Shown piece after piece: positions 46,981 to 64,000 of a stretch of 64,000 nucleotides of DNA. Numbering within the stretch: position 1 is the stretch's first letter; each line of letters opens with the position of its first letter. The notes beneath the pieces were generated by a model that was given only the letters and a program-made list of their open reading frames with translations, did no database searches and was not told the DNA's origin. The DNA is from Lysobacter spongiicola DSM 21749 (GTDB lineage: Bacteria > Pseudomonadota > Gammaproteobacteria > Xanthomonadales > Xanthomonadaceae), in contig NZ_FUXP01000004.1 in NCBI RefSeq assembly GCF_900167055.1, positions 1 through 64,000 on the forward strand. Reading direction: 5' to 3'. The position numbers and the translations under genes were made by a program.

Positions 46981-49512
<2,532 letters not shown>

Positions 49513-61185: not shown

Positions 61186-61620
61186 ATGCACAAGGACATC
61201 CTGCTGGTCGAGGACAACCCCGACGACGTCGAGCTCACCCGCATCGCCTTCCAGGAGGCGAAGATCGCCAACCGTCTGGTGGTGGTGGGCGACGGCGCCG
61301 AAGCGCTGGACTACCTGTTCGGTCGTGGCAAGCACGAAGGCCGTGACGTCTCCGACCTGCCGTCCATCGTCCTGCTGGACCTGAACCTGCCCAAGGTGGA
61401 CGGGCGCGAAGTCCTGCAGGCCATCCGCGCCGACGAGGCGACCCGCACGCTGCCGGTGGTGGTGCTGACCACCAGCACCGAGCCGTTCGATGTCGAGGCC
61501 AGCTATGCGCTCGGCGTCAACAGCTATATCCAGAAGCCGGTGGACTTCGAACAGTTCGTCTGGGCGGTCAAGCAGGTGGGGCTGTACTGGCTGGTGCTGA
61601 ACCACCCGCGCACCGCGTAG
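61186..61620 (+). CDS. Single-domain response regulator (Rcp1-like)
   Basis: 144 residues. Receiver with ED9-10 acidic pair, phosphoacceptor Asp65 (VLLDLNLPKVDG) and KP at about 117-118 (IQKPVDF), and the extended loop YLFGRGKHEG seen in Rcp1-type regulators that pair with PAS/phytochrome-like kinases. No output domain, so phosphate is probably passed on or used by protein contact. Stop lies 17 bp from the convergent oxygenase stop. Confidence 0.9.
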   Translation: MHKDILLVEDNPDDVELTRIAFQEAKIANRLVVVGDGAEALDYLFGRGKHEGRDVSDLPSIVLLDLNLPKVDGREVLQAIRADEATRTLPVVVLTTSTEPFDVEASYALGVNSYIQKPVDFEQFVWAVKQVGLYWLVLNHPRTA

Positions 61621-61637: not shown

Positions 61638-62366
61638 TCAGGCGGTCGCGAACAGTTTTTCCGCACGCTGGAACAGGATCCAGCTGGTGGCGATGACCTT
61701 GTCCCCATCGACCGGGCGATTGCCGCGATGGGTGTGGGTGAAGGCCGCCGGGGCGATCAGCAGCGAGCCGGCGCGCGGCGTGATCTTCCGTTGCTGGTAC
61801 AGGAACTCGGTCTCGCCGGCCTGGAAGCCGTCGTTGAGGTAGATCGTCCACAGCAGGTGCCGGTGCAGTGTTTCCGCGGAAGGGTCGCGCGGGTACAGCT
61901 CGCAGTGCCAGTACGGGTATCCGCCGCGGCCGCCGGCGTAGCGCTGCAGGTTGATGCCTCCCGGACGCAGGACGGTCTGCACCACCGGCGCCAGCGCCGC
62001 ATCGTCCATCGACTGCAGGCGCTCGGGCGTCAACCGGTGCCGCTGTCCTTCCGCGCCCGGCACTTCCAGCATGAGCGGGCCGATCAATGCGTGCGGGTAA
62101 CGCCGCAGGTACCGCAACAGCCCACCGAATACGGCCTGGTTGAGGATTCCCTCGGCTTCCCGCCATTCCGGCCGCCCACTGATGGTCAGGTCCAGGCTGT
62201 CCTTGAGGTCGGTATGGACGCCGCCGCCGACCTGGCCGGGGCGGGCATGGGTACTGGCGTCGAACAGCCCGACCAGCTGGCGGCAGCTGGCGGCATCCAG
62301 CGCCCCGGCTTCGACGTGGATGAAATCACCCGGATCCGCGGGCGGCGCCTGCGTTGTCTTCTCCAT
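61638..62366 (-). CDS. 2-oxoglutarate/Fe(II)-dependent oxygenase
   Basis: 242 residues from the ATG at 62366, with GAAAGGATC upstream. Iron ligands are probably His154 and Glu156 (YWHCELYP) and a later His within THTHRG (211-213), and GETEFLY precedes the second half of the double-stranded beta helix. Substrate unknown; such proteins hydroxylate proteins or small molecules. It diverges from the secreted-protein operon across a 304-bp gap. Confidence 0.8.
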   Translation of the reverse strand: MEKTTQAPPADPGDFIHVEAGALDAASCRQLVGLFDASTHARPGQVGGGVHTDLKDSLDLTISGRPEWREAEGILNQAVFGGLLRYLRRYPHALIGPLMLEVPGAEGQRHRLTPERLQSMDDAALAPVVQTVLRPGGINLQRYAGGRGGYPYWHCELYPRDPSAETLHRHLLWTIYLNDGFQAGETEFLYQQRKITPRAGSLLIAPAAFTHTHRGNRPVDGDKVIATSWILFQRAEKLFATA

Positions 62367-62670
62367 GATCCTTTCCCGGTCGCAACCAGCGACATGGTCG
62401 CACGGCCGGCGTCCGCGCCGGACCATACGCCACCGTTGTACAGCTCTGTCCCCCGGTGGTGCCCCGGGTGTTACATCGGAGCCGGGGCCAATGGACACGC
62501 GGCTTTCACGGCCGGCCCGGGCCCGGCCAGTCAGCGAGGTGATACAGCCGTGAAACACATACCTGTGGCGCCCCGGTCGCGTAAAAAACGCAACTCCATG
62601 ATTTAAAAAGGAATCCGAGGTTGGCACGCGGCATGCGTTGGTCCCTGCACACGATTCGCAGGACATCTCC
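62367..62670. promoter_or_regulatory. 304-bp divergent regulatory gap
   Basis: The gap contains no ORF with protein character. The left 220 bp are GC-rich with several inverted GGCCGG-type runs. The part from about 62580 is A/T-richer (GTAAAAAACGC, CATGATTTAAAAAGG) and leads to a sigma-54 type promoter at 62622-62637. An enhancer-binding site is expected upstream, but no clear palindrome for it was identified. Confidence 0.6.
62622..62637 (+). promoter_or_regulatory. Sigma-54 (-24/-12) promoter candidate
   Basis: TGGCAC-GCGGC-ATGCG, against the RpoN consensus TGGCAC-N5-TTGCW: the full -24 half and the invariant GC of the -12 half at correct spacing (9 of 11 consensus positions). A start site near 62648 would give a leader of about 23 nt to the ATG at 62671. 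Confidence 0.65.
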
Positions 62671-63210
62671 ATGGCCGTCTCCATCCGCCCGTTCCACTGC
62701 ATCCCGGTCGCCTTTGTCGCCGGTCTGCTGCTCACTGCCCCTCCGGCCTCCGCTTCCGGCGGGCGCCAGGGCGTGCATGCCGTGGGCGGGGAGATGGTGA
62801 TCCTCCGTGACGTATCCGCACGGCCCGCCTACCGCCCCGCCCCCCCGGGCATGGCGCTGATCGTCGACCCGTCCCCGGTCAACGAAATCAACATGATGCT
62901 CGGCCTGGGCGAGATGTCCGACGCGGAATACGCGGAGATCGGCGCCGGCAGTGGACCCGACCTCGGCCCCGGCGGCCATGCCCCCACCACCATGGTGGAG
63001 CGGGTGGCCGGCGGAGCGATCAACGGCAGTCTGGGACGCGTGACCGACCGGGGCGGGATTCTTTCCGGAACCGGCATGACCGGCGCCATGAGCGCGCCGA
63101 TGGGCGCGATGGGCAACACCACCCGCGGCATCGGCGACCACGTCAAGGGCGCGCTGTCCCAGTTCCCCCTGTTCACCCAGCCCGCCACCAGCGGCGCCCC
63201 GGGGGGCTGA
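62671..63210 (+). CDS. Secreted protein of unknown function, first gene of sigma-54 operon
   Basis: 179 residues from the ATG at 62671, with AGGA six bases upstream. A signal peptide (about 1-29: PVAFVAGLLLTAPPASASG) precedes a Gly/Met/Pro-rich low-complexity domain (AINGSLGRVTDRGGILSGTG, MTGAMSAPMGAMGNTTRGIG) and one acidic segment (LGLGEMSDAEYAEIGAG). Not recognised. The next gene begins one base after its stop. Confidence 0.6.
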   Translation: MAVSIRPFHCIPVAFVAGLLLTAPPASASGGRQGVHAVGGEMVILRDVSARPAYRPAPPGMALIVDPSPVNEINMMLGLGEMSDAEYAEIGAGSGPDLGPGGHAPTTMVERVAGGAINGSLGRVTDRGGILSGTGMTGAMSAPMGAMGNTTRGIGDHVKGALSQFPLFTQPATSGAPGG

Positions 63211-63211
63211 G

Positions 63212-63865
63212 ATGAACCTGCGACACCTGCCCCGCAACTGCGCAGCGGTCCTCGCGCTGTGTGCCGGCGCGATCGTGGTGCCGCCGGCCGACGCCCAGGC
63301 CCCGCCGGACGAGTACGACCGCATGCTCGGTTACCTCGCCGACACCCGCATCGACGGCAACGCCCTGGCGGGAGCCAATGGCGCCATCGCGATCAACCAG
63401 GCAGCCGGGGATCTCAACCGCCAGGCCAACCTGCGCTCGATCGCGAGCGGCCGGCATGCATCGGCCGACGTGCGCGCGGCCCAGCACCAGGTCGCGGACC
63501 GCCACGACAGCCCTTCCGAGGCATCCGCCGTGATCGGCGGTCGCGCGCTCGATGGCGCCAGCGGCCTGGCCTCGATCAACCAGGCCAGCGGCAGCGGCAA
63601 CAGCGAAATGAACGTGGTCGCGGTGACGCTGGCCACCCAGGGCATGCGCGAGGCAGACGACGGGAATGCACCCGCCGCCTCCCCCGCGTCGGCAGGGGGG
63701 CAGCCCCCGCTGAACCGGACGCCGGCGAAGGCCGGCCTCCGCCACGTCGCGGTGGAGGCCACCGCGCTGCACGGATTCAGCGGAGTGCTGCAACTCAATC
63801 AGGTCGCGGGCGCCGGAAACGCCACCGGGAACCAGCTCGGGCTGTCCATCCAGGGCGGCCCGTAG
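63212..63865 (+). CDS. Secreted repeat protein, amyloid/adhesin-like
   Basis: 217 residues with a signal peptide (about 1-28, ending ADA-Q). Three imperfect repeats at about 49-78, 110-139 and 183-213: ALAGANGAIAINQAAGDLNR, ALDGASGLASINQASGSGNS and ALHGFSGVLQLNQVAGAGNA, each continuing to a second Asn. The common core is ALxGxSGxxxxNQxxGxGNxxxN. Regularly spaced Asn, Gln and Gly with alternating hydrophobic residues resemble curli and FapB/FapC repeats. The functional-amyloid assignment is inference. Confidence 0.65.
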   Translation: MNLRHLPRNCAAVLALCAGAIVVPPADAQAPPDEYDRMLGYLADTRIDGNALAGANGAIAINQAAGDLNRQANLRSIASGRHASADVRAAQHQVADRHDSPSEASAVIGGRALDGASGLASINQASGSGNSEMNVVAVTLATQGMREADDGNAPAASPASAGGQPPLNRTPAKAGLRHVAVEATALHGFSGVLQLNQVAGAGNATGNQLGLSIQGGP

Positions 63866-63922
63866 GACGCCCGCGACCCTTCGTCCAACAGTGGTACCAC
63901 CAAGAGAGAGAGAGGAAACACC

Positions 63923-64000
63923 ATGAACAGCACCATCAGGAAGACCGGACTCGCACTGGCTGTCGCCGCACTCGCGGCCAGCCCGGCGGCCTTCGCGCAG
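63923..64000 (+). CDS. Secreted protein, N-terminal fragment (cut by window end)
   Basis: 26 codons from the ATG at 63923, with the purine-rich GAGAGAGAGAGGAAA upstream: MNSTIRKTGLALAVAALAAS then PAAFAQ, a typical signal peptide ending AFA-Q. The mature protein lies beyond the window. Position suggests the next product, perhaps the main structural component, of the sigma-54 operon. Confidence 0.7.
   Translation, partial: MNSTIRKTGLALAVAALAASPAAFAQ

Follow-up and report, generated by a model that had tools for sequence, protein, structure and literature searches.

The closest described counterpart of the locus analyzed here is the fap system of Pseudomonas (P. fluorescens UK4 and PF07, P. aeruginosa PAO1), which consists of six genes in an order that the two loci have in common. 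The published minimal Fap repeat is G-x4-N-x3-G-x6-N (PMC3792158), and one published definition of a fap system requires four or more fap homologs in close proximity (PMC6173800). In P. fluorescens PF07, the -24/-12 promoter of fapA-E has been mapped by 5'-RACE, rpoN and brfA mutants demonstrate that both RpoN and BrfA are required for fap, and brfA is the adjacent gene in reverse orientation downstream of fapF (PMC9207406). BrfA is an enhancer-binding protein and a c-di-GMP sensor (PMC13101488). The presence of fap genes in Stenotrophomonas and Rhodanobacter has been reported earlier by Dueholm et al. (PMC3792158). A more distant parallel is the curli (csg) system, in which a repeat-containing amyloid, together with a nucleator subunit, likewise leaves the cell via a dedicated outer-membrane channel.

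Gene content and order

The window, i.e., the 64,000 nucleotides of Lysobacter spongiicola DSM 21749 DNA that were originally analyzed, represents the beginning of a contig of 235,908 bases, on which the sequence was read past position 64000. An earlier note on the window described three successive signal-peptide proteins near its end, and these are indeed present, with start codons at 62671, 63212 and 63923 and signal-like N-terminal segments in all three; the third open reading frame crosses the window end, so that only two genes are complete inside. The same note pointed to the downstream sequence as the place where a C39-type peptidase or an outer-membrane exporter might be found, and both are encoded there, in the form of FapD and FapF. 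The complete gene order is fapA-fapB-fapC-fapD-fapE-fapF, followed by a convergent gene for a sigma-54 activator (Table 1). The best NCBIfam match of each of the six proteins is its own Fap family, the weakest being that of FapA, and all six homologs are clustered, compared with the minimum of four in the published definition (PMC6173800). For comparison, 80 loci were assembled, 79 from one scan and the window's own, and the fapABCDEF order is preserved in every one of them.

Table 1. Features of the Lysobacter spongiicola fap locus (positions on the contig, which coincide with those of the window up to 64000)
Feature	Position	Strand	Description
Half-site GTGTTAC	62468..62474	.	At -153, in the register of the full distal palindrome of relatives; putative degenerate distal site
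Candidate enhancer (UAS) palindrome	62539..62558	.	GTGATACAGCCGTGAAACAC; 82 bp before the -24 element; 1 mismatch to STGTWWC-N6-GWWACAS; putative function
-24/-12 (sigma-54) promoter of the fap operon	62621..62637	+	TTGGCACGCGGCATGCG, as TTGGCACG-N5-TGC; predicted start near 62648
fapA	62671..63210	+	179 aa; proposed periplasmic chaperone; NCBIfam chaperone_FapA, E 3.9e-7, sole family match; syntenic in 80/80 loci
fapB	63212..63865	+	217 aa; minor amyloid subunit, putative nucleator; NCBIfam FapB, E 2.2e-25
fapC	63923..64000 in the window, continues to 65428	+	501 aa; major fibre subunit; NCBIfam FapC, E 2.1e-45
fapD	65547-66248	+	C39 peptidase; NCBIfam FapD, E 2.9e-79
fapE	66259-67038	+	259 aa; NCBIfam FapE, E 6.3e-29
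fapF	67067-68491	+	474 aa; outer-membrane exporter; NCBIfam FapF, E 3.4e-110
brfA-like sigma-54 activator gene	69859-68525	-	Adjoins fapF, convergent

These observations make it nearly certain that a Lysobacter-like gammaproteobacterium here carries the complete fapABCDEF operon, with predicted BrfA-type, RpoN-dependent control and an amyloid fibre as the predicted product. The Fap system is already described, from Pseudomonas, and is ordinary among the relatives of Lysobacter and Stenotrophomonas. The earlier note was wrong in seeing no match between the gene set and fap: it judged from two complete genes and the beginning of fapC, inside which the window ends. The apparent novelty of what is a standard fap operon arose from this edge, a false lead that the downstream sequence corrects.

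Repeats, structures and catalytic residues

As in Pseudomonas, the locus encodes a FapC with three repeats, a C39 peptidase and a FapF barrel exporter. The three imperfect Asn/Gln/Gly repeats that had been noticed in the second, 217-residue protein, FapB, turn out to be exactly three copies of the minimal Fap repeat, at residues 57, 118 and 191, and FapC also contains exactly three. A comparison of FapC with the solved FapC fibrils (PDB 9nqd and 9u4u) gives an E value of 3e-11, and the predicted FapC fold has the 9u4u fibril as its top PDB match (probability 1.00, E 3.7e-3), in a low-confidence model with a mean pLDDT of 55, in which most of the repeat region is at 60-80 and residues 1-182 are below 50. 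Residues 157-473 of FapF align with the solved FapF barrel, 5o65 (E 1.9e-80). FapD matches the Pfam C39 family (E 1.7e-19), and all 80 homologs compared retain the C39 catalytic residues Cys62, His146 and Asp162. Taken together, the protein sequences support the prediction that the product of the operon is a secreted functional amyloid.

Compared to Pseudomonas FapC, the 501-residue protein has a long Asn/Thr-rich N-terminal extension and lacks the CxxC motif. This extension of about 180 residues is predicted to be disordered (residues 26-182). FapC is shorter in the Dyella and Rhodanobacter relatives.

Alternative interpretations

The original proposal of an undescribed amyloid or adhesin system fares differently in its two parts: the amyloid part agrees with the Fap family matches and the repeats, whereas the claim of novelty fails against a standard fap operon. 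That the system is unrelated to both fap and curli might seem to be suggested by the lack of a Pfam family for FapA and FapB and by the scores of the six proteins, none of which reaches the curated NCBIfam equivalog cut-off, a database threshold that is not a defining biological feature and is apparently tuned to closer kin of the Pseudomonas proteins. The FapF cut-off, however, is passed in none of the 77 genomes with a FapF match among the 198 genomes of the family that were scanned, so that the low scores are best explained by divergence of this lineage from Pseudomonas. Given the presence of every one of the six Fap families in the canonical order, the 80 syntenic loci and the matches of FapF and FapC to solved Fap structures, this reading, which the downstream genes led us to reject, retains a negligible probability; the profile search that had been suggested for the 217-residue protein, with its FapB match, also speaks against novelty. 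Curli was rejected as well: none of the proteins has a Csg family among its Pfam or NCBIfam matches, as the earlier note had judged by eye, and the exporter and the repeats are of the Fap type. A C39/FapF export cluster of the Fil type (NCBIfam FilB/FilC, “putative pilus system”) would account for the matches of FapD to pilus_FilB (1.1e-31) and of FapF to pilus_FilC (2.7e-21), but the Fap models match the same two proteins far better (2.9e-79 and 3.4e-110, respectively), and the locus additionally encodes the FapB and FapC repeats and FapE. With its weaker match, the Fil-type assignment was rejected and appears extremely improbable.

It is also conceivable that the operon is a genuine fap operon the product of which is not an amyloid in this lineage, e.g., a non-fibrous surface adhesin. 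The predicted disorder of the FapC extension and the missing CxxC motif are compatible with such a change, but the three repeats have kept their key Gly, Asn and Gln positions without change in 29 homologs, and the size of FapC is known to vary widely among genera through its non-core regions (PMC3792158). A non-amyloid product thus seems very unlikely.

The sigma-54 promoter and the adjacent activator

The -24/-12 promoter proposed in the earlier note is confirmed: its score is not reached in any of 200 shuffles of the upstream region, and about 34 bp separate the end of the element from the fapA start codon (62671). An equivalent element precedes fapA in all 80 loci, with p<0.05 in 79 of these. 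The protein encoded by the convergent gene next to fapF combines a VpsR-type N-terminal domain (Pfam, 3.7e-5), a Sigma54_activat AAA+ domain (7.1e-71) and a Fis-type HTH domain, and contains the GAFTGA and Walker A motifs. Both the position and the domain type of this gene agree with those of P. fluorescens brfA, and the locus thus shows the complete layout of BrfA-type control as known from Pseudomonas (PMC9207406), namely, a -24/-12 element before fapA and an adjacent gene for an enhancer-binding protein, convergent and located after fapF. The element found in all relatives and the dedicated activator gene support the earlier idea of sigma-54 control, so that fap is predicted to be regulated by RpoN together with the adjacent activator, by extrapolation from the mutant phenotypes in P. 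fluorescens.

The Lysobacter spongiicola genome encodes two rpoN genes on separate contigs, one at position 291111 and the other at 48552. Upstream of the operon lie genes for a 2OG-Fe(II) oxygenase (61638-62366, minus strand) and a single-domain response regulator (61186-61620, plus strand), with no evident link to fap.

The activator gene was identified in 79 of the 80 loci, convergent and downstream in 61 and divergent and upstream in 18; the remaining locus is on a short contig that contains no activator gene. The 18 loci with the divergent gene upstream of fapA belong to the S. maltophilia group and represent a relocation within the family. Control of fap of the RpoN/BrfA type seems to be widespread, in the Xanthomonadales and in a copy from Aeromonas, and therefore the regulatory model that was derived from a single P. 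fluorescens strain probably applies broadly, Stenotrophomonas included.

A conserved palindrome upstream of the promoter

Strong palindromes upstream of the -24 element were found by explicit dyad counting, which replaced an unsupervised (EM) motif search that had settled on the AT-rich flank of the promoter. The pattern STGTWWC-N6-GWWACAS is present in the 80 fapA upstream regions in 41 cases exactly, in 59 with at most one mismatch and in 77 with at most two, compared to shuffle expectations of 0, 0 and 1.5, respectively. Relative to the -24 element, the copies are concentrated at -150 to -154, -161 to -168 and -70 to -82, with spacings of approximately one helical turn. The rest of the same loci (1.33 Mb) contains no exact copy and two copies with one mismatch. 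The pattern was derived from these very loci, and a genome-wide scan provides a partly independent control: among 23 exact sites in the 198 family genomes, 9 adjoin a fap operon by coordinates (working labels of the genomes: G169, G109, G055, G185, G010, G113, G145, G195 and G029), and the other 14 are about as many as a reversed control pattern yields. The copy in the window is one of three one-mismatch sites in its genome. In the fap locus of Aeromonas caviae, the palindrome is absent, though the -24/-12 element and the activator gene are present.

The palindrome is a candidate BrfA enhancer to which the activator might bind. Autoregulation of the activator gene through the same palindrome was considered and rejected, given that none of 59 regions upstream of this gene contains the palindrome at two or fewer mismatches.

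A hairpin between fapC and fapD

The 118-base gap between fapC and fapD is predicted to form two hairpins in tandem (contig 65456-65524), the second of which has 14 perfect pairs (z -4.1). Among 18 relatives, 9 of the 18 predicted pairs are altered on both sides with pairing kept. The T run after the hairpin is short, which makes a pure intrinsic terminator doubtful; partial termination or protection of the 3' end of the fapABC message would be compatible with these features. The hairpin could determine how much fibre subunit is made relative to the export machinery. Both the palindrome and the hairpin appear to be conserved and to have received little study, and they may be new. We would give roughly even chances to the combined hypothesis that the palindrome, at its helix-phased positions, is a lineage-wide enhancer of a c-di-GMP-responsive, BrfA-type fap switch and that the covarying hairpin provides for an excess of fibre subunits over the export machinery. 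The precise candidate enhancer sequence and the RNA element are open to testing by mutation.

Proposed mechanism

Under the model transferred from Pseudomonas, RpoN-polymerase would bind the -24/-12 element, and transcription would be switched on, probably at high c-di-GMP, by the product of the neighbouring gene, a BrfA-type enhancer-binding protein that would bind the upstream palindromes. FapA-F would then cross the inner membrane via Sec, with FapA acting as a chaperone and FapD, the C39 cysteine peptidase, processing or licensing the substrates; FapF would export unfolded chains of FapB, FapC and FapE, and FapC, probably nucleated by FapB, would polymerize to form amyloid fibres in the biofilm matrix. 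For Sec export, secretion through FapF, nucleation by FapB and the roles of FapA and FapD, the model follows the Pseudomonas literature (PMC6173800).

Distribution among relatives

The relatives come mainly from Stenotrophomonas, Lysobacter, Luteimonas, Pseudoxanthomonas, Xanthomonas, Dyella, Rhodanobacter and Frateuria, and the FapF of Lysobacter sp. A03, the closest of them, is 77% identical. The fap operons of Stenotrophomonas, Xanthomonas, Lysobacter, Luteimonas, Pseudoxanthomonas, Dyella and Rhodanobacter are direct orthologs (51-77% identity in FapF) that share synteny, promoter and palindrome, and differ in the 18 loci with a divergent upstream activator gene. Many genomes of the family, but not that of Lysobacter spongiicola, encode a second, distant FapF-like paralog (E of about 1e-44), and these paralogs may belong to Fil-like export clusters. 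A Stenotrophomonas-like fap operon is also found in a record titled Bacillus subtilis SK7B5, which is probably a case of contamination or mislabelling.
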